NCBI GenBank assembly: GCA_027490955.1
Contig: JAIXXB010000004.1
Location: 62,001-126,000 of the forward strand
Direction of reading: 5' to 3'
Length of the DNA stretch: 64,000 nucleotides
Source of the DNA: Rhodobacter sp.
Lineage (GTDB): Bacteria; Pseudomonadota; Alphaproteobacteria; Rhodobacterales; Rhodobacteraceae
Below the pieces are notes generated by a model. The model had not been told where the DNA came from and searched no databases. It saw nothing but the letters and a program-made list of their open reading frames with translations. Shown here piece after piece: positions 23,846 through 40,851 of this stretch (positions within the stretch are counted from its first letter, which is position 1; each line of letters begins with the position of its first letter). The position numbers were made by a program, and so were the translations under genes.

Positions 23846-24988
23846 TTAGGCCACGCGTTTGCCTGCCACCCATGTGCCGCGCGGGCAGGCCAGCCCAGCC
23901 AATCGCGCCACGCGGATGATATCGGCACGCGCGCCCAACACCAGCGCACCGCGATCCTGCAGCCCCGCGGCTTGGGCGGGGGCCGATGTAACAGTGCGCA
24001 ACCCGCGCGCCACATCGCCCCATAAATCGCCCAACATCAGCGCGGCTGACAACAGGGCAGACGGCACATAATCGGACGAGACGATATCGAGCAAATCCAT
24101 TTCCGCCAAGACATGCGCAGCGACATTACCCGAATGCGATCCGCCGCGAATCAGATTTGGCGCGCCCATCATCACCGCGATACCTGCCGCGCGACAGGCG
24201 CGGGCCGCCTCGAGTGTGGTGGGAAATTCGGCAAAATGCGCGCCGTGTTTGGCCGAAATTGCCACCTGATCGGCGGTGGTATCATCATGGCTGGCCAGCA
24301 CCGCGCCAAAACGGCGGGCCTCTGCCACAGCGGCAGCCTCGTGTGCGGGGCCTAAACGGGCAGATAGGGCGATTTGGCCTGCAACATGGCTGTCAAATTC
24401 AGCGTCATTAAGCCCATGTTTGCCGCAGACATAGGCGCGCAACTGGGCCAAATCCCGAAACTGCCGCTGACCAGGAGTATGATCCATCAGGCTTACGATG
24501 CCGATGCCGTCTTTGGGGCCAAATTTGGCAAGTTCTTCGATCAGGGTTTCGGAACAAACCTCGGCACGCAGATGCAGCAAATGGCTGATGCGCAGCGCGC
24601 CCTTGCTGCGCAAATCTAAAATCTCATCGGCCAAAAGGCGGGCATATTCGCCATAATTGGCCTTGTTATTCGAAACAACCGAGCCGACGCGCAGTGCATC
24701 GAACACAGTCGTGATGCCCGTGCTGGCAAGTTCCCCATCATGGGCGATGATCGCGCTGGCATGGGGCCAATCTACGCGCGGGCGCGGTTCGATATGGCGT
24801 TCCAGATTGTCTGTGTGCAATTCAATCAGGCCTGGCGCGAGCAAATCACCCTCGCAATCCAGCGCATCGGCGGCCACAGTCTTGCCTTGGTCGATCGCCG
24901 TGATATGCCCAGAGTCAAGCGTTATCGCACCGCGGATCACCTCGCTGGGCATCACCAGCGTGGCATTGGCAAGGATGGTCTTGGTCAT
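23846..24988 (-). CDS. phnM: Alpha-D-ribose 1-methylphosphonate 5-triphosphate diphosphatase
   Basis: PhnM is an amidohydrolase-fold metal enzyme that removes diphosphate from the PhnGHIL product to give ribose 1-methylphosphonate 5-phosphate, the PhnJ substrate. Metal-site motifs are visible: LIELHTDNLERH, the carboxylated-lysine/His region, and LASHDDTT. Length (380 residues) is normal. It is divergent from the DUF1045 gene, with 84 bases between the two, and is therefore transcribed separately from phnG-phnN. Start at 24988 (MTKTILANA) or 25003; neither has a strong binding site. Confidence 0.93.
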   Translation of the reverse strand: MTKTILANATLVMPSEVIRGAITLDSGHITAIDQGKTVAADALDCEGDLLAPGLIELHTDNLERHIEPRPRVDWPHASAIIAHDGELASTGITTVFDALRVGSVVSNNKANYGEYARLLADEILDLRSKGALRISHLLHLRAEVCSETLIEELAKFGPKDGIGIVSLMDHTPGQRQFRDLAQLRAYVCGKHGLNDAEFDSHVAGQIALSARLGPAHEAAAVAEARRFGAVLASHDDTTADQVAISAKHGAHFAEFPTTLEAARACRAAGIAVMMGAPNLIRGGSHSGNVAAHVLAEMDLLDIVSSDYVPSALLSAALMLGDLWGDVARGLRTVTSAPAQAAGLQDRGALVLGARADIIRVARLAGLACPRGTWVAGKRVA

Positions 24989-25031
24989 GATCGAAACTTT
25001 CAAACAGATTGGGCGCGGTATGGCGCAGAAC

Positions 25032-25072: not shown

Positions 25073-25750
25073 ATGATGAAGATGAACCGATATGCGATTT
25101 ATTATGCGCCGCCCGAAGGCGAATTTGCCGATGCTGCAGCGCAGTGGCTGGGCTGGGATTTGGCCCATGGCCGCGCCCTGCCCCCTGTTGGCGTGCTGGA
25201 TGGGCAAGATATCACGCAAACTCCGCGCAAATACGGCTTTCACGCCACGATAAAACCGCCGTTTCGGCTGGCGGGTGGGGTGGATTTGGCCCAATTTTGC
25301 ACCGCCACTGAAAGGTTGGCCGCCAGTTTGCAAAAGGTCACCCTGCCCGCGCTGAAGTTTGCGCTGCTGGAGGGATTCTTGGCCCTGATCCCCGCCGCGC
25401 CCAGCGCCGATTTGCAGGATTTGGCCGCCGAAGTGGTGCGCGCACTTGACCCCTACCGCGCGCCGTTGACCCCCGCCGAAATCGCCCGCCGCAGGCCCGA
25501 AATGCTGACCCCGCGGCAACGCGAATTGCTGGGGATTTACGGCTATCCCTATGTTATGGAACAGTTTCAGTTTCATTTGACCCTGTCTGGCGCACTGGGG
25601 CCAGACCAGACTGCGGCCGCGATGGCCGCCGCACAAAGCCATTTCGCGGGCGTGGTACCGCAGCCCTTTATCCTTGCCGATCTGTGCCTGTGCGGCGAGG
25701 ATGATCTGGGCCAATTCCACCTTTTGCACCGCTATCCCCTAATGGCCTGA
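25073..25750 (+). CDS. DUF1045 phosphonate-metabolism protein, 2H phosphoesterase fold
   Basis: A 225-residue protein of the TIGR03223/DUF1045 family found in C-P lyase clusters. It shows the two H-x-T motifs of 2H phosphoesterases, FHATIKPPF (near residue 60) and FHLTLSG (near 166). Such enzymes open cyclic phosphates, and no phnP is present here, so it may handle the ribosyl 1,2-cyclic phosphate released by PhnJ; that is inference. The frame is open back to 24740, but the upstream part lies opposite phnM and shows no homology, so I start at 25073 (25076 and 25082 are alternatives). It converges on phnN with a 19-base overlap. Confidence 0.85.
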   Translation: MMKMNRYAIYYAPPEGEFADAAAQWLGWDLAHGRALPPVGVLDGQDITQTPRKYGFHATIKPPFRLAGGVDLAQFCTATERLAASLQKVTLPALKFALLEGFLALIPAAPSADLQDLAAEVVRALDPYRAPLTPAEIARRRPEMLTPRQRELLGIYGYPYVMEQFQFHLTLSGALGPDQTAAAMAAAQSHFAGVVPQPFILADLCLCGEDDLGQFHLLHRYPLMA

Positions 25751-26277
25751 AGCAGGCGCGCGATACCAATGTCTGGCGCGCCATCGTTGCACACTTGGGT
25801 ATGGGGCAGCCCATTGGGCAAGGCAAAATCAGCGCGGGCAAGGCGGGCTTTGATATCGTCGCTGTTTTCGCGCCCCCGCGCGGCAAGACGCTGTGCCAGC
25901 AGGGCGGCGGGTGCAGTGATCAGTAAAATCTGCATCTGCGGAAACGCCGCCCGCGCCTGCGCAATCGCCGCGCGCGAGCCGTTCAGCAAGACAGTGCGCC
26001 CCGCCGCTAAAGGTGCCAATTGCGCATGGCACACACCATAGAACAAGCCGTGCGCCTGCCAATGCAGAGCAAAATCGCCCGCCGCCAAACGGGCCTGAAA
26101 CTGGGCCTCGGTACACGGCTCAAAAGGCTCTCCTTGCCCAGTTTGCGGGCGCGAGATTACCCGCTGCGCCCAATGCAAGCTGGGATCGGCGGCCAGCGCA
26201 CCTGCAAGCAGCGTATCTTTGCCTGCGCCCGATGGGCCAACCACAAAGACCAGTTTGCCCTGCGATGTATCTGTCAT
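25732..26277 (-). CDS. phnN: Ribose 1,5-bisphosphokinase
   Basis: PhnN phosphorylates ribose 1,5-bisphosphate to PRPP, the exit of the C-P lyase pathway into nucleotide metabolism. It is a P-loop kinase of 181 residues related to guanylate kinase, with GPSGAGKDT near the N-terminus and the conserved VISRPQT stretch. The start overlaps phnL by 4 bases. The stop lies inside the 3' end of the convergent DUF1045 gene. Confidence 0.92.
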
Positions 26278-26957
26278 GCGGCGGCCTTGGGGGTAAAGGC
26301 GCGCACATCGATCAGGCGGTCACAAACCCTGTCGCGCGCAGCTTCATCATGGAAAATTCCCAAAATCGCCGCGCCGCGCGCCTTGGCCTCTTGGATCAGG
26401 GTCAGAACCACCTCGCGGTTGGCCGCATCAAGGCTAGCGGTAGGCTCGTCCAGAAGCAGGGCGGGAAACGGGTGCGCAAAACCGCGCGCGATATTGACGC
26501 GCTGCTGCTCGCCCCCCGAAAAGGTGGTGGGTGACAACTCCCACAACCGCTGCGGAATGTTCAACCGCGCCAGCAAATCGGCGGCGCGGGCGCGGGCAAT
26601 ATCGGCAGGCACGCCAAGGAAAAGCAGGGGTTCGGCCACCACATCCAGCGTGGGCACGCGCGGCACCACACGCAAAAACTGGCTGACATAGCCCAAAGTG
26701 CTGCGCCGCAGGGCGATGATCTGGCGCGGGCTGGCGGTGACAACATCCAGATCACCCACCCATATACTGCCCGAAGCGGCCAGATAATTGCCCCAAACCA
26801 TGCGCATCAGAGTGGATTTACCCGCCCCCGATGCCCCAATCAGCCCCACACATTCGCCGCGCGCCACGGCCAAATTGGCCCCCGCCATAACGGGAATAAC
26901 AGCGCCATTTTGGTTGTGCAAGGTAAAGCTTTTGCAAAGATTTTCGATGGTTATCAT
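26274..26957 (-). CDS. phnL: C-P lyase complex ABC-type protein PhnL
   Basis: An ABC ATPase-like subunit that with PhnGHI attaches methylphosphonate to the ribose of ATP, displacing adenine. Motifs: Walker [10 protein letters not shown], signature [15 protein letters not shown], Walker [13 protein letters not shown], switch [12 protein letters not shown] (His as in PhnL, not a transporter). It has 227 residues from the start at 26957, one base after the phnK stop; a longer frame to 27002 would run inside phnK. It overlaps phnN by 4 bases. Confidence 0.93.
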
Positions 26958-26958
26958 G

Positions 26959-27762
26959 TCACACCTGCAAAACCGAGCTGACCAAAAGTTGGGTATATTC
27001 ATGCTGCGGGTCGTCGAGCACCTGATCGGTCAGGCCCCTCTCTACAACATGGCCGTCTTTCATCACCATCAAACGATCTGCCAGCAGGCGCACCACGGCC
27101 AGATCATGCGTGACGATAATGGCCGACAGCCCCATTTCGCGCACCAACCCGCGCAGCAAATCCAAAAGCCGCGCCTGCACCGAAACATCAAGCCCGCCCG
27201 TAGGTTCATCCATAAACACAAGGCGCGGCGCGGTGACCAGATTGCGCGCAATTTGCAGGCGCTGTTGCATGCCGCCCGAAAAGGCGCTGGGCCGTTCGTC
27301 AATGCGGCCCGCGTCAATTTCCACGCGGCCCAGCCAATCGATAGCCGATGCGCGAATATCGCCGTAATGGCGCGCACCAATGGCCATCAGCCTTTCGCCG
27401 ACATTGCCGCCAGCTGAAACCCCCATGCGCAAGCCGTCGCGCGGGTTTTGGTGAACATAGGCCCAATCAGTGCGGGCAAGTCGGCGGCGTTCTGCTTCGC
27501 CCATTTGCACCGTATCGCGTGCGCCTTGCGCGGTTTGAAAAAACACCTCGCCCTGATCGGGGCGCATATGGCCCGCAAGGCAGGACAGAAGGGTTGATTT
27601 GCCAGACCCGCTTTCGCCGACAATGCCCAGCACCTCGCCTTGGTAGACGTCAAAGGAAATATCCGCACAGCCCATGCGCGCGCCATAGCGTTTGGTCAGA
27701 TTTTTCACCTGCAACAAAGGCGTATCTGCCGCCGCTGCAAAAGCATGGGAAAGATCGGTCAT
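26959..27762 (-). CDS. phnK: C-P lyase complex ABC-type protein PhnK
   Basis: PhnK is an ABC-fold subunit that docks on the PhnGHIJ core as a dimer, despite the resemblance to oligopeptide-transporter ATPases. Motifs: Walker [10 protein letters not shown], signature [15 protein letters not shown], Walker [14 protein letters not shown]-switch IVTHDLAVV. It has 267 residues, of which about 12 at the N-terminus precede the core. Its start overlaps phnJ by 4 bases. The presence of both PhnK and PhnL in order confirms a complete catalytic cluster. Confidence 0.93.
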
Positions 27763-28643
27763 TCTGCGGCCTTTTCAGTGATGGTCTGCCCGCCCAGCGC
27801 ACCGATGTGGCCCGCCGCGCGCCGCGTTGCGCAATAGTCGGTGTCAGAACAGACAAACATCCGCCCGCCTTGATCGTCGGTAATCACCTCGTCCAGATAG
27901 CTGGTATCTGAGGCGCAAAGATCGCAGCTATGGTTGGCCTTGCTGGGGCTGAACGGGTGATCGTCAAAATCCAAACTGACAACGTGGGTAAAGGGCGGTA
28001 TGGCATAGATGCGCTGTTCGCGCCCCGCGCCAAACAATTGCAGCGCCGCATTTCCCGACAGTTTGGGGTTGTCAAATTTCGGAATTGGCGAAGGATCCAT
28101 CACATAGCGCCCCTCCACCCGCACAGGATAGGCATAAGACGTGGCAATTTGCCCATGTTTGGCGATGTCTTCATACAGCTTCACATGCATCAGCCCGTAT
28201 TCTTCCAATTCATGCATTTTGCGGGTTTCCACCTCGCGCGGTTCTAAAAAGCGCAGAGGTTCGGGAATGGGCACTTGGTAAACCATAATCTGCCCCGCGG
28301 TCAGCGCGGCCTCGGGTATACGATGGCGGGTTTGGATGATGGTGGCCTTATCGGTGGCTTCGGTCACCGCAATGCCTGCTGTGGCCACGAAAAACTTGCG
28401 GATGGAAACGGCGTTGGTCGTATCATCCGCACCTTGATCGATGACCTTTAGCACATCATCAGGGGTTAGGCAGGCGGCCGTCACCTGCACACCGCCCGTG
28501 CCCCAGCCATAGGGCATGGGCATTTCGCGGCTGGCAAAGGGCACTTGATACCCCGGAATGGCTACGCCTTTTAGAATGGCGCGGCGGATCATGCGTTTGG
28601 TATCTTCGTCCAGATAGGCAAAGTTATAGGCTTGGTCGGTCAT
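27759..28643 (-). CDS. phnJ: C-P lyase radical-SAM catalytic subunit PhnJ
   Basis: PhnJ cleaves the carbon-phosphorus bond using a [4Fe-4S] cluster and SAM. All essential cysteines are present: cluster ligands C240, C243 and C265 (SCDLCASD and FVCSDTDYC) and the catalytic thiyl C271, the same spacing as in E. coli PhnJ. Length 294 residues. The start at 28643 (MTDQAYNFAYLDED) overlaps the HAD gene by 4 bases; the longer frame to 28793 is a shadow of that gene. It should be fully active on sequence grounds. Confidence 0.95.
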   Translation of the reverse strand: MTDQAYNFAYLDEDTKRMIRRAILKGVAIPGYQVPFASREMPMPYGWGTGGVQVTAACLTPDDVLKVIDQGADDTTNAVSIRKFFVATAGIAVTEATDKATIIQTRHRIPEAALTAGQIMVYQVPIPEPLRFLEPREVETRKMHELEEYGLMHVKLYEDIAKHGQIATSYAYPVRVEGRYVMDPSPIPKFDNPKLSGNAALQLFGAGREQRIYAIPPFTHVVSLDFDDHPFSPSKANHSCDLCASDTSYLDEVITDDQGGRMFVCSDTDYCATRRAAGHIGALGGQTITEKAAE

Positions 28644-29254
28644 TGCAGGCCCCGCTGGATCAGGCCCGCGCGCAACGCATCGGGGCTGGTGAAATGGATG
28701 GTGTCCATGCCAAAGGCCGCCGCACCTGCAATGTTGCGCGCCGAATCGTCGATAAACAGGCATTCGCGCGGGGCTAGGCCAGCGCGGCTGCACAGCAGGT
28801 CAAATATGCCCGCATCGGGTTTGATCACGCCTTCGCGCCCCGACACGATTGTCACGCCAAAGGCGCGGCCAAGACGGGGATGCGCGGCCACGCCGATGGG
28901 CCAAGTTTCCGCCGACCAATTGGTGATGGCGTGAATGAACAGCCCACGCGCGCGCAAATCTTCCATGGCCTGCCAACTCGATTCAATCGCATGTGCCACA
29001 GTTGCCGCAAATCGAGACGGATAGGCCGCAAACAGGGCGCGGTCGGCAGGATCATCGATTTCGCGCGCCAAGTCAGCCCAGCTTGCGCCCGCATCTGCAC
29101 GCAGGTTACGGGCAAAGAAATCGGTGCGCGCCAAAAAGTCATCCACCAAAGCTTGGCTGCCCAAATCGGGCAAAAAGGCTTGGCTTGGCTGCCAATCCAC
29201 CAGCACATTACCAATATCAAATACTACCGCGCGCAGGGGAAAAGACTGGGTCAT
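28640..29254 (-). CDS. HAD-IA phosphatase (YihX-like) embedded between phnI and phnJ
   Basis: A 204-residue haloacid-dehalogenase-superfamily hydrolase. Motif I is VVFDIGNVLVDW (nucleophile D13, with Gly instead of the usual second Asp, as in YihX-type sugar-1-phosphatases), motif II ITNWSAETW, motif III GVIKPDAGIF and motif IV CLFIDDSARN. An alpha-helical cap lies between motifs I and II. It overlaps phnI and phnJ by 4 bases each, so it is translated as part of the C-P lyase core. It is not PhnX phosphonatase, whose own lineage differs. A role on ribose phosphates of the pathway is inference. Confidence 0.87.
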   Translation of the reverse strand: MTQSFPLRAVVFDIGNVLVDWQPSQAFLPDLGSQALVDDFLARTDFFARNLRADAGASWADLAREIDDPADRALFAAYPSRFAATVAHAIESSWQAMEDLRARGLFIHAITNWSAETWPIGVAAHPRLGRAFGVTIVSGREGVIKPDAGIFDLLCSRAGLAPRECLFIDDSARNIAGAAAFGMDTIHFTSPDALRAGLIQRGLQ

Positions 29255-30348
29255 TCGGCGGCCTCGCGGGCGGCAATGGCCTCGCTCCGCAGACGGCGAA
29301 TCAATTCCAATTCGGATTGAAAATCCACGTAATGCGGCAGTTTGATATGTTCCAAAAAGCCCGTTGCCTGCACATTATCGGCATGCATCAGCACAAATTC
29401 TTCGTCTTGGGCAGGCGCGCCGATGTTATCTTCGCCCAATTCGCGCCAGCGCAGGGCGCGATCGCACAGGCTCATAGAAATCGCCTTGCGTTCCGATTGG
29501 CCGAAAACCAGCCCATAGCCGCGCGTGAACTGCGGCGGGATGGTTTTGCTGCCCTGAAATTGGTTGACAGTTTCACATTCGGTGAGCTCGACCTCGCCAA
29601 TATCAATGGCAAAGCCAAGCTCGGGGATGTGCATTTGCACCGCCACCATGCCAATGCGCAATTCGCCCACAAAGGCATGGGTGCGCCCATAGCCGCGCTG
29701 TGTGGAATAGGCGATCGACAGAACAAACCCCTCGTCTGCGCGCGCCAAGGCTTGCAGGCGAAGGGCGCGGGTGGCGGGCAGCTCCATCGGCGCGCGCGTC
29801 AGATCGGGCGGGGAGGCATCGCTGGATGCTTCGGTTTCGATCAGATCATCGCGGTTTAGAAATTCCATCACATGGGGAATATGGGCGGGCGGGGTTTGGG
29901 AGGGGCGCTCCTGTTCAGCTTGGCCCAGCGGCGAATCCCCTTCGGCCATTAGGGCAAAGTTTAGCAGCCGATGGGTATAGTCAAAGGTTGGCCCCAGTAT
30001 CTGCCCACCTGGCAAATCCTTGAACGTGGCCGATACGCGGCGGATCACCGCCATACGGGCCGTATCCACAGGGATCGACGCGCCAAAGCGCGGCAATGTG
30101 GTGCGATAGGCGCGGATCAGAAACACTGCCTCGATCAAATCACCGCGCGCCTGTTTTATTGCCAGCGCGGCCAGATCAGGATCATACAGCGATCCTTCGG
30201 CCATCACGCGGTTTACGGCCAATGTCAGTTGCGCGCGGATTTGGGCGACGGAAAGGGCGGCAAGGCCCCTATCGCCGCGCCGCTCCTCGGCCAGCCATGC
30301 ATGGGCTGCGTCAATTGCCCTTTCGCCCCCTTTGACGGCAACATACAT
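29251..30348 (-). CDS. phnI: C-P lyase core subunit PhnI
   Basis: PhnI is the nucleosidase-type subunit of the C-P lyase core that, with PhnG, PhnH and PhnL, exchanges the adenine of ATP for methylphosphonate. The 365-residue length and family stretches such as MYVAVKGGERAIDAAHAWL at the N-terminus and QLTLAVNRVMAEGSLYD are typical. It overlaps phnH by one base (TGATG) and the HAD gene by 4 bases. Nothing in it looks degraded. Confidence 0.94.
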   Translation of the reverse strand: MYVAVKGGERAIDAAHAWLAEERRGDRGLAALSVAQIRAQLTLAVNRVMAEGSLYDPDLAALAIKQARGDLIEAVFLIRAYRTTLPRFGASIPVDTARMAVIRRVSATFKDLPGGQILGPTFDYTHRLLNFALMAEGDSPLGQAEQERPSQTPPAHIPHVMEFLNRDDLIETEASSDASPPDLTRAPMELPATRALRLQALARADEGFVLSIAYSTQRGYGRTHAFVGELRIGMVAVQMHIPELGFAIDIGEVELTECETVNQFQGSKTIPPQFTRGYGLVFGQSERKAISMSLCDRALRWRELGEDNIGAPAQDEEFVLMHADNVQATGFLEHIKLPHYVDFQSELELIRRLRSEAIAAREAAE

Positions 30349-30917
30349 CAGATATCCCCCACAATGGTGCTGCGCGGCAAACCTGCCACCTGCGCGCCTG
30401 CCGTGAAAAAACAGTCAAACCCCAATGGGAATAGCGCATGATTGGCCTTGAATGCCGCTGTTTCGGGCAAGGAAAGAAAGGCTTCGGTTTCGATTCCGGG
30501 GCCAGTCAACCGCGCACCTACCTTGGCAATGGTGGGCATTTCCACGATCAATGTTGCGGCGCGGTCAGGATAATCAGGCAGACCAATGGCAAAGCGCTGG
30601 ATCGGCTGCAGCGCCGCCCAAGTGCCGATGGCAAAGCTGGCCGCCCCCGCATCAACCAAGGGCGCGCCCGTGTGAAAGGTGATCCATGCGCGCAGGGCGG
30701 CTGTGTCATGTGTGCCTGCCAGATGAACGGGCGTTGTCGCGTCAAACAGCGTCACCGCCAGCGTTGCCGCCGCTGTAGAGAGCGGCGCTGGCGCGCTGGC
30801 CCCGTGCAGCGTTTCTATTTGGCCAGGCCGCGACAGGGCATTAAGCGCCGCGCGAAACGCATGCGATGCTTGCACAGGCGCATCGGTAAAGCCGCCAATC
30901 AGCGCGTCTGGGTTCAT
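30348..30917 (-). CDS. phnH: C-P lyase core subunit PhnH
   Basis: A 189-residue PLP-transferase-like fold subunit (without PLP) needed in the PhnGHIJ core. Recognisable family sequence includes AFRAALNALSRPGQIETL near the N-terminus and HTGAPLVDAGAASFAIGTW in the middle. It overlaps phnG by 4 bases and phnI by one base. Its position second in the operon matches the usual phnGHIJKL order. Confidence 0.92.
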   Translation of the reverse strand: MNPDALIGGFTDAPVQASHAFRAALNALSRPGQIETLHGASAPAPLSTAAATLAVTLFDATTPVHLAGTHDTAALRAWITFHTGAPLVDAGAASFAIGTWAALQPIQRFAIGLPDYPDRAATLIVEMPTIAKVGARLTGPGIETEAFLSLPETAAFKANHALFPLGFDCFFTAGAQVAGLPRSTIVGDI

Positions 30918-31360
30918 TGGTCTTCTCCGCGAACTAGGGTGAAAAACTCGACCTTGGTGGCGGCGGCGCGGGCAGCGCGGGTGGCGCGGGCAGCGGCCTC
31001 TTCGGCAGCAAGGGGGGCCAGAACGGCGGCTTGTAACGCGCTGAATTGATCGGTTTGCAGCAGCGCATCCAAAATGGCGGCGCGGGTCGCATGGTCTTTG
31101 TCGCGGCCTTGCACGTGGCCATAGCCCAACTCGCCTGTGGTCAGGCGCAGCGCACAGCGCGTGACCGTCATTTCGCCCAGATTGAACGGCGCACCCGTAC
31201 CGCCTGCCCGCCCCTGCACCATCACTGTGCCAATTTCAGCAGGGCGCAACACCTCATGGGGCGGCAAGTCTGGAAACAGGGCGCGCAGGCGGTCAGGCTT
31301 GGCGCGCGCCAGTTGGCCCATCCATGCGGCGCGGGCAGTGGTTTCGGGCGGGTGGGGCAT
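30914..31360 (-). CDS. phnG: C-P lyase core subunit PhnG
   Basis: First gene of the catalytic operon; 148 residues. PhnG forms the dimer interface of the core with PhnI. Family sequence includes RAAWMGQLARAKPDRLRALF at the start and FNLGEMTVTRCALRL with GYGHVQGRDKDHATRAAILDAL in the middle. A strong GGAGATGCC binding site precedes the ATG. A palindrome about 25 bases upstream and a Pho-box-like site further upstream suggest double control. An Ala-rich helix fills residues 110-135. Confidence 0.92.
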   Translation of the reverse strand: MPHPPETTARAAWMGQLARAKPDRLRALFPDLPPHEVLRPAEIGTVMVQGRAGGTGAPFNLGEMTVTRCALRLTTGELGYGHVQGRDKDHATRAAILDALLQTDQFSALQAAVLAPLAAEEAAARATRAARAAATKVEFFTLVRGEDQ

Positions 31361-31440: not shown

Positions 31441-31458
31441 GTGAAGTTTTCATGACAG
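31441..31458 (-). promoter_or_regulatory. Pho-box-like direct repeat overlapping the phnF start
   Basis: Read toward phnG on the minus strand, CTGTCAT-GAAA-ACTTCAC has the 7+4+7 layout of a PhoB site, perfect in the first half and four of seven in the second. It includes the ATG of phnF at 31452. PhoB binding here would favour phnG expression and could interfere with phnF. Confidence 0.35.
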
Positions 31459-32180
31459 GCCTGCGAACCCCCATCTGGCAATCTATCGCACAAACCCTGC
31501 GGGGCGAGATTGCGCAGGGCCATTTTTCAGCGGGCGATAAACTGCCAACCGAGGCGGAGTTGGCCCTGCGTTTTGGCGTGAACCGCCATACTGTGCGCCA
31601 TGCTTTGGCCGAATTGGCACAGGCAGGCGTGGTGCATGCGCGGCGCGGCGCGGGGGTATTTGTAACCATCCGCCCCACCGATTACGCGCTGGGCCAGCGC
31701 GTGCGGTTTCATCAAAATATCCAAGACTCGGGCCGCACCCCCTCGCGCCAAATCACGCGTCTGGCCACCCTGCCCGCCAGTCCTAAAGAGGCGGCGGCGC
31801 TTGGCCTGCCCGCAGGGGATATGGTGCAGGTGGTCGAAGGAACCTCTCTGGCAGATGGGCAACCCTTAGCGGTGTTTCGGTCTTGCTTTCCTGCCGCGCG
31901 CTTTCCCGGCTTGCTGGCCCATATGCGGGGGCAAAATTCGGTCAGCGCGGCGCTGGCGGCTTGTGGGGTGCCTGACTATACCCGCGCGCATACCCGCATC
32001 ACCGCGAAACTCGCCGATAGTTTGCTGGCCCATACGCTGCGCCTGCGCGAAGGCTCTGCGCTGATTCGCACCGAAGCGGTCAACATAGACCGCGCTGGCC
32101 AACCCATCGAATTTGGCACCACATGGTTTGCGGGCGAAAGGGTCGCGCTAACTGTGCAAAACCAAGATCGAAACGGCTAG
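31452..32180 (+). CDS. phnF: GntR/HutC-family phosphonate operon regulator PhnF
   Basis: The N-terminal winged helix of about 75 residues (GDKLPTEAELALRFGVNRHTVRHAL) is followed by a UTRA ligand-binding domain (VVEGTSLADGQPLAVFRSCFP, then EFGTTWFAGERV). At 242 residues it is typical of PhnF. It is divergent from phnG across a palindromic intergenic region, which fits repression of the C-P lyase operon and relief by a phosphonate or a pathway intermediate. The start ATG lies within a Pho-box-like sequence. Confidence 0.9.
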   Translation: MTGLRTPIWQSIAQTLRGEIAQGHFSAGDKLPTEAELALRFGVNRHTVRHALAELAQAGVVHARRGAGVFVTIRPTDYALGQRVRFHQNIQDSGRTPSRQITRLATLPASPKEAAALGLPAGDMVQVVEGTSLADGQPLAVFRSCFPAARFPGLLAHMRGQNSVSAALAACGVPDYTRAHTRITAKLADSLLAHTLRLREGSALIRTEAVNIDRAGQPIEFGTTWFAGERVALTVQNQDRNG

Positions 32181-32249: not shown

Positions 32250-33416
32250 ATGCCGCAGATTTCCCCTTTGCGCCTGACAGGCGCGCAGTGCCTGATGGAT
32301 GGTCAGATGATGGGCGAGGCTTTGACCATAACACATGGCCTGATCGGGGACGGCCCAGCGCGCGAGGTGAATTTGACGGGCTATCTGCTGCTGCCCGCCA
32401 TCATCGATCTGCATGGCGATGGCTTTGAACGCCACCTTTCCCCGCGCCCCACCGCCCCCTTTGACAAGCGCCGCGCGCTGACATCGGTTGCAACCGAATT
32501 GGCCGCCAATGGAATCACAACCGCATGGCTTGCCCAAAGTTGGAGTTGGGAAGGCGGGTTTCGATCTGGCGCCGCCACTTTGGATTTGCTGGCCGCGCTG
32601 CAGGATCGGCGCGCGAGCCTGTTGGCCGATTGCCGCGTGCAAATCCGCCTTGAAACCCATATTCCGCAAGAATTTGCCAAAGTGTTGCAGGCGGTTCGCA
32701 CCTATGGTGTAGATTATGTTGTGTTCAACAACCATCTGCCCGAAGCCTTGGATATGGCAAAAAACCAACCCAAGCGCTTTGCCAATTGGGCCGCGCAAAC
32801 CAAACGCACGGCGGAAGACATGTTGCAGATCGTGCAGGCGGCAGATGCGGCGGGGCCACAAGTGCCCAGCGCCCTTGCCGATTTGGCCGCGCAGTTTGCC
32901 GCCCTTGGCCTGCGGATGGGATCACATGATGATGCCAGCCCCCAGACCCGCACGTTTTTCCGCAGCATCGGCGCGCGAAACTGCGAATTTCCAACGACTC
33001 TGGCTGCAGCACAGGCGGCGCGAGATTCTGGCGAGCCTGTGCTAATGGGTGCGCCAAATGTGGTGCGCGGTGGCAGCCAATCTGGCAATATCGCTGCGCA
33101 ATCGCTGATAGAAGCGGGGTTATGCGATGCGCTGGTGTCGGATTACTACTACCCCGCCCTTGCCCAAGCAGCGTTTCATTTAATGGACGCTGGCGTGATG
33201 GATTTACCCGCCGCTTGGGCAATGATTTCAACACATCCCGCCCAAATCGCAGGTCTGCAGGATCGCGGCGCTTTGACAGTGGGCAAACGCGCCGATTTGG
33301 TGGCCGTGAACGCCGAAACCCGCGCTGTTGAGATGACCCTCAGCGCAGGCCGCATTGCGCATTTGTCTGGCGAGGCGGCGCGGCGTGTTTGGTCGGCAGC
33401 CATGATCGGGGGGTAG
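32250..33416 (+). CDS. Second PhnM-like amidohydrolase
   Basis: A 388-residue homologue of PhnM encoded beside phnF. It keeps the metal-binding pattern (IIDLHGDGFERH and MGSHDDAS), the NFVR/G-type loop MGAPNVVRGGSQSGN and the C-terminal LQDRGALTVGKRADLV. It is divergent from the other PhnM in this window: for example IDLHGDGFERH replaces IELHTDNLERH. AAGGATTTAG precedes the start. It may be a paralogue with another phosphonate-sugar substrate or a phosphate-controlled backup copy. The frame is intact. Confidence 0.87.
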   Translation: MPQISPLRLTGAQCLMDGQMMGEALTITHGLIGDGPAREVNLTGYLLLPAIIDLHGDGFERHLSPRPTAPFDKRRALTSVATELAANGITTAWLAQSWSWEGGFRSGAATLDLLAALQDRRASLLADCRVQIRLETHIPQEFAKVLQAVRTYGVDYVVFNNHLPEALDMAKNQPKRFANWAAQTKRTAEDMLQIVQAADAAGPQVPSALADLAAQFAALGLRMGSHDDASPQTRTFFRSIGARNCEFPTTLAAAQAARDSGEPVLMGAPNVVRGGSQSGNIAAQSLIEAGLCDALVSDYYYPALAQAAFHLMDAGVMDLPAAWAMISTHPAQIAGLQDRGALTVGKRADLVAVNAETRAVEMTLSAGRIAHLSGEAARRVWSAAMIGG

Positions 33417-38561: not shown

Positions 38562-39344
38562 ATGGGAATGGCGATGAAAGATCTTCCAGTTTTTCCAGAC
38601 CTTAAGGGCGCGTCGGTGTTTATCACGGGCGGGGGGTCGGGCATTGGCGCGGCCTTGACCGAGGGGTTTTTGCGCCAAGGCGCGCGCGTGGCCTTTTGCC
38701 AGCGCAGTGATGGGACTGCCTTTTGTGATGCCATGGCTGCCGCAACAGGCAACCGCCCTTTGTTCTTGCGCGCCGATATCACCGATTTGCAGGCGCTGAA
38801 TGCGGCCTTGGCCAGTGCCGCTGCCACCCATGGGCCGATTTCGGTTTTGGTCAATAATGCGGCCAATGATCAGCGCATGGGCACGTTGCAGGTGGATGAG
38901 GCGTTTTTTGATGCCTCGATTGCGGTCAACCTGAAATCCTATTTCTTTGCGGCCAAGGCTGTGATCCCTGCCATGCAGGCCGCGGGCGGCGGGGTGATCG
39001 TGAATTTTTCCTCTATCAGCTATATGATGGCAACGGCGGGCTATCCTGTTTACATCGCAGCCAATGCAGCCATCACGGGGCTGACGCGCACTTTGGCGCG
39101 CGAATTTGGCGCAGGGCGCATTCGCGTCAACGCCCTTGCCCCAGGCTGGGTGCTGACGCAAAAGCAAAAGGATCTTTGGGTTACACCCGAAGGGCTGGCC
39201 GCGCATTTGGCGCAGCAATGCCTGCCCGATCCGCTAGAGCCGGACGATATTGTCGGAGGATGTTTGTTCTTGGCATCCAAAGCCTCGCGCGCGATGACGG
39301 GGCAAGTTTTGGTGATTGATGGCGGCGTGGTGCATAGCGGATGA
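38562..39344 (+). CDS. SDR-family dehydrogenase with Asn in place of the catalytic Lys (possible galactose dehydrogenase)
   Basis: A 260-residue classical SDR: NAD(P) motif TGGGSGIGAAL, NNAAND, catalytic Ser in NFSSISYMM and Tyr164 in YPVYIAANAA. The residue four after the tyrosine is Asn168 (AAT), where nearly all active SDRs have Lys; the +13 Ser-Tyr spacing is preserved. C-terminal APGWVLT and VIDGGV are normal. Its stop overlaps dgoK by 4 bases, so by context it would oxidise galactose (or a related sugar) to the lactone. Starts at 38568 and 38574 are also possible. Confidence 0.82.
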   Translation: MGMAMKDLPVFPDLKGASVFITGGGSGIGAALTEGFLRQGARVAFCQRSDGTAFCDAMAAATGNRPLFLRADITDLQALNAALASAAATHGPISVLVNNAANDQRMGTLQVDEAFFDASIAVNLKSYFFAAKAVIPAMQAAGGGVIVNFSSISYMMATAGYPVYIAANAAITGLTRTLAREFGAGRIRVNALAPGWVLTQKQKDLWVTPEGLAAHLAQQCLPDPLEPDDIVGGCLFLASKASRAMTGQVLVIDGGVVHSG

Positions 39345-40252
39345 AACCTGTTTGGATTGCAATTGATTGGGGCACAACCAATTTGCGCGGTTGGGCCATG
39401 GGGAACGATGGTATTCTGGCCGAAGCCAGTTCTGACAAAGGCATGTCCAGCCTAAAACCTGCCGAGTTTGAGCCAGCCTTACTGGCGATGATCGGCCCTT
39501 GGCTGGTGGGCCATAGCGGCGCGCCGATTCCTGTTTACGCCTGCGGAATGGTGGGTGCGCGTCAAGGCTGGGTCGAGGCACCCTACCGCGCCGTGCCCTG
39601 CGCGCCAGTGCATGGCGGCGCTTTGATGGCGGTGCCTGTGCAAGACCAACGCATCGCGGTGCACATCACTCCGGGTTTAAGGCAAGACAGGCCTGCCGAT
39701 GTGATGCGCGGCGAAGAGACACAAATTGCGGGCGCGCTGGCGCTGTATCCAAATTTTGATGGGGCCATGTGCCTGCCTGGCACGCACAGCAAGTGGGCAC
39801 AGGTTTCTGCAGGCGAAGTTGTGTCTTTTCAAACCTTTATGACGGGCGAGATGTTTGCGCTTTTGTCCACACAGTCGGTATTGCGGCTGGGGATGGCTGG
39901 GGATGGTTGGGATGACACCGCCTTTGATGCAGGCGTGGCCGACGGCATGGCGCGGCCCGAACGCCTGCCCGCCAGCCTGTTTCGCCTGCGCGCCGAGGGG
40001 TTGCTGGCGGGGCTAACCCCTGATGGTGCGCGTGCGCGTCTGTCTGGCCTGCTGATCGGGGCAGAGCTGGCAACTGCCCGCGCCTATTGGCTGGGCATGG
40101 ATGTGGCGCTGATCGGATCATCCAAAACCACACCGCTTTATGCCCGCGCGCTGGCAGCCCAAGGGGTCACGGCGCGCATATTGTCTGTCACCGACTGCAC
40201 GCTTGCGGGGCTGACCCGCGCTGCTGGCCATTTGGCAAAGGATAAACCATGA
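39341..40252 (+). CDS. dgoK: 2-dehydro-3-deoxygalactonokinase
   Basis: DgoK phosphorylates 2-keto-3-deoxygalactonate at O6. Family sequence: [17 protein letters not shown] (ATPase-fold phosphate loop), the SDKGMSSL stretch and [13 protein letters not shown] in the centre. Length 303 residues. It overlaps the SDR gene upstream and the aldolase gene downstream by 4 bases each, so the kinase-aldolase pair is translationally coupled. Assignment over the related glucose-pathway kinase is clear because KDG kinases are PfkB-type. Confidence 0.93.
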
Positions 40253-40851
40253 CCCGCAACCTGATCGCCATTTTGCGAGGGCTAACACCGCCCGAAGCCC
40301 TGCCCATTGCCGAGGCCTTGATTGACGCGGGCATCACCACCATCGAAGTGCCGCTGAACTCGCCCCAGCCGTTTCAATCGATTGCGTCGATGGTGCGCAC
40401 CTTTCCGCAGGCGCATATTGGCGCAGGCACGGTGCTGACAGTGGCGCAAGTGCAAGAGCTGGCCGATGTGGGGGGGCAAATCGTGGTCTCGCCCAATGTG
40501 GATGCCGAGGTTATCGCCAAAAGCCGCGCGCTGGGCCTGCAAAGCTGGCCCGGAATCATGACCCCGACCGAGGCTTTTGCCGCCCTGAAGGCAGGAGCCA
40601 CGGGGCTGAAACTGTTTCCTGGATCCTTACTTGGCCCAGATGGGCTGAAAGCTATTCGCGCGGTGTTGCCAACGGGCACGCAAGTTTATGCTGTGGGCGG
40701 CGCTGGGCCAGATAACTTTGCCGCATGGCGCAGGGCAGGGGCCGATGGGTTTGGAATTGGCACAGCGCTGTATGTGCAGGGCCTCTCGGCTGCCGAAGTC
40801 TTGGCCCGCGCGCGCGCGATTGTAACTGCATATGACGAGGCGATGCGATGA
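40249..40851 (+). CDS. dgoA: 2-dehydro-3-deoxy-6-phosphogalactonate aldolase
   Basis: A class I KDPGal aldolase of 200 residues that yields pyruvate and glyceraldehyde 3-phosphate. The Schiff-base lysine is in [14 protein letters not shown], and the catalytic glutamate is in [11 protein letters not shown]. Compact size and adjacency to dgoK favour KDPGal over KDPG as substrate, though the families overlap. It overlaps both neighbours by 4 bases. Confidence 0.93.

Follow-up and report, generated by a model that had tools for sequence, protein, structure and literature searches.

What does a phosphatase gene do between phnI and phnJ in a C-P lyase operon? The question is raised by a HAD gene of Rhodobacter sp., found in the stretch of 64,000 nucleotides analysed here (the window). 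The gene occupies positions 28640..29254 on the minus strand. It is an intact ORF with an ATG start and encodes a YihX-like HAD-IA phosphatase of 204 amino acids, assigned from the ORF, Pfam and NCBIfam matches, an AF2 model and fold matches in the PDB. The plus strand reads TCAT at 29251..29254, where the phnI stop meets the HAD start, and again at 28640..28643, where the HAD stop meets the phnJ start. Both correspond to ATGA on the coding strand, that is, to overlaps of four nucleotides. Such overlaps imply that translation of the HAD would be coupled to that of phnI and phnJ. The sequence-only reading had described a complete HAD-IA gene with four-base overlaps on both sides within the C-P lyase core, and both the sequence and the Pfam matches agree with this.

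The neighbours on the minus strand are, on the upstream side, phnI (29251..30348; PF05861, 538.1 bits), phnH (30348..30917; PF05845, TIGR03292) and phnG (30914..31360; an ORF with homologues in the same order). Downstream lie phnJ (27759..28643; PF06007, 476.1 bits), the ORFs assigned by order as phnK (26959..27762) and phnL (26274..27002, start unsure), the ribose 1,5-bisphosphokinase gene phnN (25732..26277; TIGR02322, 166.3 bits, cut-off 156) and phnM (23846..25003; TIGR02318, 407.1 bits, cut-off 390.55). Between phnN and phnM, on the plus strand, is a gene for a DUF1045 or RcsF-type 2H phosphoesterase, a proposed substitute for PhnP (25088..25741; PF06299, 180.1 bits; TIGR03223, 243.6 bits, just below the cut-off of 248.95). 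The plus strand also carries the regulator gene phnF (31452..32180; an ORF, by order) and, adjoining it and opposite in strand to phnG-N, a second phnM-like amidohydrolase gene (32250..33416; NF011987, 381.8 bits, cut-off 253). A similar second phnM-like gene is recorded in a section of PMC3840354. A phosphonate-operon hexapeptide transferase was also identified in the window by Pfam and NCBIfam. The names phnG, phnK, phnL, phnF and phnC-E are presumptive, as they follow from gene order. Near the operon, at 39341..40851, are genes that we take to encode a 2-dehydro-3-deoxygalactonate kinase and an aldolase-like protein. The same pair is annotated at L182:55-1556, in a plasmid stretch with a stand-alone Paracoccus HAD, maybe by coincidence.

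Within one bacterial family, the HAD is a real, recurrent accessory gene of the C-P lyase operon. The family sample comprised 295 genomes, about one per genus, and PhnJ was present in 147. Confinement to this genome, which the sequence-only reading had named as telling against its proposal, was not found: 34 of the 147 PhnJ genomes share the order phnI-HAD-phnJ. With start codons chosen by script, a four-nucleotide overlap was observed with phnI in 28 of these 34 loci, with phnJ in 31, and with both in 25. One locus (L091) has a stop within the HAD and a gap of 559 nt upstream of it. The other 113 PhnJ genomes have no HAD at the site, 80 of them by fetched loci and 33 as counted from the search listing; among them is G247 (locus L121), the only further member of the window's genus that was sampled. 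Gene order was compared in 120 family stretches and the window, 121 in all. The HAD query matched 241 of the 295 genomes at E <= 1e-12, and most of the matches listed are paralogues with about 31-41% identity. Matches with E < 1e-40 occur in 39 genomes; they adjoin PhnJ in 34 and do not in five (G160, G286, G151, G269, G228). Second, divergent PhnJ copies are present in some genomes of the family.

The same order was seen in a scan of GTDB contigs with the HAD alignment, from which the best 80 of at least 572 relatives were kept. Among these best 80 loci, phnJ is directly downstream of the HAD in 63. This holds for 61 of the 66 top-ranked loci (L188-L253; the exceptions are L207, L224, L233, L249 and L253) and, in the lower 14, for L256 and L260 only. 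The nearest relative among the best 80 (90%) comes from a MAG titled Pseudorhodobacter antarcticus; the genera in other record titles include Gemmobacter, Ruegeria, Jannaschia, Roseovarius, Marivita, Paracoccus and Loktanella. For two records in phn context whose titles point to other families (L234, L248), a wrong label or wrong binning is probable.

In the class sample, 38 of 240 alphaproteobacterial genomes had both PhnI and PhnJ, giving 39 pairs including the window. The gap between the PhnI and PhnJ matches is 649 nt in the window. In all 36 pairs from other alphaproteobacterial families it is 26-149 nt, which leaves no room for such a HAD. Nor is there room in the two pairs of G210, a class-sample genome of the same family (71 and 234 nt).

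The HAD is accessory, not obligatory, and most complete operons have none. On a tree of PhnI and PhnJ from 113 loci, 33 of them with the HAD, its presence requires 26 changes, at least 10 of them forced by well supported branches; labels shuffled at random give a mean of 28.5. Loci without a single full PhnI and PhnJ (L079, L082, L084, L096, L097, L099, L101, L103) were left out. Both this tree and the HAD tree are quick builds with SH-aLRT support only. The presence of the HAD on the operon tree is thus patchy and close to random.

The evolutionary linkage to the neighbouring genes is loose. Pairwise HAD distances in 32 loci correlate with those of PhnI at r 0.13, and 139 of 999 permutations are as high. 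Correlations of the HAD with PhnM (r 0.43) and PhnH (r 0.37) are better than with PhnI. Against PhnI, the coefficients are 0.34-0.75 for PhnG, H, J, K, L and N and only 0.25 for one permease. Sequence windows near the junction gave no better correlation with the HAD. The distance tests exclude L091, and the near-junction test excludes L084 and L091. In the close operon pair L092/L093, dN is 0.36 for the HAD vs 0.08 for PhnN and 0.06 for PhnH. Given these weak correlations and the dN values of this pair, the HAD seems to have been moved or swapped largely independently of the genes that flank it.

The HAD tree, which excludes L091, L253, L241 and 12 identical rows, contains one clade of 80 rows (SH-aLRT 99) made of 75 phn-context HADs and five others. 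Nine further phn-context HADs fall outside this main clade, mixed among other HADs. The phn label changes nine times on the tree, five of them forced; hence several entries into, or exits from, the phnI-phnJ junction are likely.

Some HADs are found away from phn operons. Three genomes contain a main-clade HAD and no detected PhnJ (G160, the Paracoccus aurantiacus genome and the L224 genome); PhnJ may have been missed in these draft assemblies. In the L249 and L253 genomes PhnJ is encoded elsewhere with no HAD beside it, and the HAD of L253 is divided between two pieces. In G286 (L082:5332-8403) the HAD is flanked by a phnM-like gene and a DUF1045 gene, away from the phn operon of that genome (L083). 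This arrangement is single, as none of 20 other DUF1045 regions examined contains a HAD, and a module of HAD, second phnM and DUF1045 was dropped as a candidate. Relatives with 37-43% identity, on plasmids of Shinella, Ensifer and Rhizobium, are in or beside sugar-utilisation operons, as annotated. A relative with 58% identity on a Paracoccus plasmid adjoins TRAP transporter genes, with no phn gene in the stretch of 18 kb compared. Distant HADs occur elsewhere in the HAD-less stretches L102, L128 and L107. Those at L102:16684-18872 and L128:5413-6036 (39% and 35%) are located near the phnF side of two phn operons that lack the HAD and are sisters in the HAD tree; the former is beside a sulfatase-family gene. 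The outgroup HADs of L255, L257 and L262 adjoin a PhnD-like substrate-binding protein, as judged by eye and, for L262, also by a match to the PhnD reference.

The protein itself belongs to the HAD superfamily class IA (PF00702, 50.3 bits, cut-off 26.4; TIGR01509, 59.7 bits, cut-off 29.4). Motif I is D13-I-G-N-V, and T111, K145 and D169-D170 complete the catalytic set. All 84 phn-context HADs share D13, T111, N112, K145 and D169, and 83 of them have D170 as well. In most HAD phosphatases an acid/base Asp stands two residues after the nucleophile. This position is occupied by Gly in 83 of the 84 phn-context HADs, and YihX has the same Gly (G8). The AF2 model of the window HAD has a mean pLDDT of 97.2, and its top structural relatives are 3cnh (Z 21.5), the phosphatase domain of soluble epoxide hydrolase 5mwa (Z 19.4) and YihX 8pno (Z 19.3, rmsd 2.7 over 189 aligned positions). 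The sequence-only reading had placed the protein with YihX and likened its motif I to that of sugar-1-phosphatases, a placement that the shared Gly and the fold match uphold.

YihX (HAD4), the alpha-D-glucose-1-phosphatase of E. coli, resembles the window HAD in its class, length of about 200 residues, D-x-G-N-V motif, K and DD motifs and fold. However, identity over the structural alignment is 21%, and yihX is not part of a phn operon. PMC4251788 describes YihX as a relatively specific alpha-glucose-1-phosphatase, and its main text does not contain the word ribose. Scores below the cut-offs were obtained with the YihX equivalog NF006991 (34.1 bits, cut-off 295), the halophile RuBP 5-phosphatase model NF053830 (27.4 bits, cut-off 330) and the HAD-1A3 model TIGR02247 (67.2 bits, cut-off 125.4). 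The last, which covers the N-terminal phosphatase of soluble epoxide hydrolase, is nevertheless the best NCBIfam match of the window protein and is matched by all 61 members of alignment A2, and the folds are similar (Z up to 19.4); unlike that domain, the phn HAD is a stand-alone protein. Comparison with the nearest relative L188 (dN 0.058, dS 0.71) and with L189 (dN 0.10, dS 0.80) indicates that the gene is under purifying selection. A role in anti-phage defence was rejected, since PADLOC gave no hit.

In E. coli, according to the passages of PMC10574752 on the pathway, phosphorus leaves via PhnP and PhnN: the PhnJ product PRcP is converted by PhnP to ribose 1,5-bisphosphate and this by PhnN to PRPP. 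The same passages give an RcsF-type 2H phosphodiesterase as the ring-opening enzyme in operons without phnP. We searched for both ring-opening enzymes in 80 PhnJ genomes of the family, the 34 with the HAD and 46 of the 80 fetched ones without it. A DUF1045/RcsF match was found in all 80, with the HAD or without it, and 45 of these matches are above the curated cut-off. In some genomes the match is away from the phn operon. No PhnP above the curated cut-off was found in any of the 80, and all have weak metallo-beta-lactamase matches. This fits RcsF as the substitute for PhnP in this family, and the HAD was rejected as a replacement of PhnP. It was likewise rejected as a replacement of PhnN, since phnN is kept in all 31 HAD-containing loci that reach it; the other three (L068, L076, L098) stop at the contig end. 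The genes phnF, phnN and phnM occur together with phnI and phnJ in 76 of 80 loci without the HAD. Taken with the RcsF matches, this means that the known pathway is largely complete without it. The DUF1045 gene is inside the operon in 17 of 28 loci with the HAD vs 64 of 76 without (Fisher p 0.016, uncorrected, one of seven traits). On phylogenetically independent pairs, few of them informative, the association is not significant (median p 0.375), and it was not upheld.

The fosmid B3_TF_MPn_2 from marine Rhodobacteraceae (PMC3840354) is similar to the window in its phn core, RcsF-type phosphoesterase, second phnM-like gene, second phnE and hexapeptide transferase; however, the section and figure legend that describe it name no HAD. 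The fosmid lets E. coli grow on methylphosphonate, according to the same section, so the HAD would be dispensable there if the fosmid, whose content we know from this description, has none. The halophile RuBP phosphatase described in a part of PMC9700705 is another HAD enzyme in a pathway through ribose 1,5-bisphosphate. It differs in that it is reported to remove the 5-phosphate of ribulose 1,5-bisphosphate and in that it is archaeal and found with an R15P isomerase. No description of a phosphatase in the order phnI-HAD-phnJ was found in the literature searched, including the passages of PMC8774927, PMC5649143 and PMC6852614, which do not mention the HAD; some key reviews may mention it.

The HAD may be a pathway or clean-up phosphatase, as the sequence-only reading had proposed. 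The best explanation, tentative and somewhat short of an even chance, is an accessory sugar-phosphate phosphatase of YihX type that would be coupled to PhnI and PhnJ and would act on ribose 1,5-bisphosphate or a relative of ribose 1-phosphate. Through translational coupling, the HAD would be made in step with both proteins. It would form an aspartyl-phosphate on D13 with Mg. With Gly in place of the acid/base Asp, it would be suited to substrates whose leaving group is good, for example sugar phosphates at the anomeric carbon (C1). As this Gly is shared with YihX, and the pathway compound of this kind is ribose 1,5-bisphosphate, the candidate substrate is alpha-ribose 1,5-bisphosphate, with the phosphorus of the phosphonate at C1. 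The products would be ribose 5-phosphate and Pi. The HAD might then work alongside PhnN, without replacing it, as an overflow branch or one that releases Pi directly. In its strictest form, the proposal is a C1-phosphatase of ribose 1,5-bisphosphate that frees the phosphonate phosphorus as Pi, a PhnN-independent exit for the C-P lyases of this family that is acquired and dropped at the phnI-phnJ junction in the manner of a cassette; we regard this form as rather doubtful.

In favour of the YihX-type phosphatase we counted the recurrence at the junction, the short junctions of other families, the overlaps, the YihX-like motifs and fold, purifying selection, the relative specificity of YihX for alpha-glucose 1-phosphate, the course of the pathway through ribose 1,5-bisphosphate, the PhnN and RcsF-type genes of the window and the arrangement in G286. 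Against it we counted the retention of phnN, the near-random presence, the weak tracking of PhnI, the three genomes without PhnJ and the fact that G286 is a single case. The relatives in or beside sugar operons also count against it, as they would suit a general sugar phosphatase.

An alternative is nearly as likely, namely that a general sugar-phosphate phosphatase has settled at an insertion-tolerant junction and does not act on C-P lyase intermediates. The operons of phn genes are expressed under phosphate starvation, which would suit any Pi-releasing enzyme. The phnI-phnJ junction is indeed an insertion hot spot in this family. Of the 80 loci without the HAD, 41 have a gap of more than 60 nt there, and in 14 it is longer than 400 nt. 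Gaps over 60 nt elsewhere in these loci number one at G-H, none at H-I, 12 at J-K, 26 at K-L and none at L-N. The genes phnI and phnJ overlap in 34 of the 80, and this looks like the plain state. No HAD remnants were detected at E <= 1 in the I-J gaps of at least 60 nt in loci without the HAD. Five loci have DUF559-type ORFs in the gap (L107, L113, L121, L167, L177; Pfam on L121 and L177). These inserts have repeat-like leaders, and the gap sequences of several genera are alike. A histidine phosphatase (PF00300), unrelated to the HAD, is encoded in three of the 121 stretches, between phnI and phnJ in L146:9023-9595 and between phnJ and phnK in L081:8861-9478 and L083:10232-10885. At K-L, 19 of the 121 stretches contain a CorA-like Mg transporter gene (PF01544 on L121:7821-8840).

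The tolerance of the junction, its other inserts, the evolution of the HAD out of step with its flanks, the relatives in or beside sugar operons and the three genomes with a main-clade HAD but no detected PhnJ all agree with a general phosphatase. On the other hand, among the inserts seen at the junction no intact enzyme family that could be recognised, apart from DUF559 and the HAD, occurs in more than one locus, and the HAD is the only insert with overlaps on both sides in most loci. Purifying selection also argues against a mere passenger, and merely five of the 80 main-clade rows are outside phn operons.

Less likely again is that the HAD clears a dead-end or side product, for example ribose phosphates formed by PhnI when it is idle, or ribosyl phosphonates unsuitable for PhnJ. 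The patchy distribution suits an optional clean-up enzyme, and coupling between PhnI and PhnJ would match the amounts. The non-homologous histidine phosphatase, which one locus has at I-J and two have at J-K, hints at recurring use of phosphatases there. However, it is no simple substitute for the HAD, as it occurs in only three stretches and coexists with the HAD in two of the genomes concerned (G105, G286). Moreover, no damaged metabolite is known as a substrate of the HAD, and the missing acid/base Asp would favour anomeric phosphates over 5-phosphates.

The weakest candidate is a direct attack on the phosphonate substrate by the HAD, as a phosphonatase or dehalogenase. PhnX shares the HAD superfamily and the phosphonate context with our protein, and in both PhnX and the L-2-haloacid dehalogenases motif I also lacks the acid/base Asp. 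PhnX needs a lysine of the cap domain to form a Schiff base. The sole lysine of the window HAD is K145 of motif III, outside the cap, which excludes a phosphonatase of PhnX type; with no PhnX model among its 16 NCBIfam hits and the haloacid dehalogenase type II model at 33.6 bits (cut-off 125.4), a phosphonatase or dehalogenase is very improbable despite the dehalogenases among the sequence and fold matches. The absence of PhnX from the 50 rows of the VIA-align structural table excludes nothing. The sequence-only reading had also decided against a phosphonatase.

C-P lyase releases methane from methylphosphonate, and Rhodobacterales accounted for about half of the C-P lyase reads in one seawater experiment, as stated in a section of PMC3840354. 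The survey marks the phnI-phnJ junction of this family as a site of repeated gain and loss of accessory genes. About one operon in four has a HAD phosphatase coupled to both of these genes. Should it act on ribose 1,5-bisphosphate, it would give phosphorus a second exit from the pathway; otherwise it may be a clean-up step.
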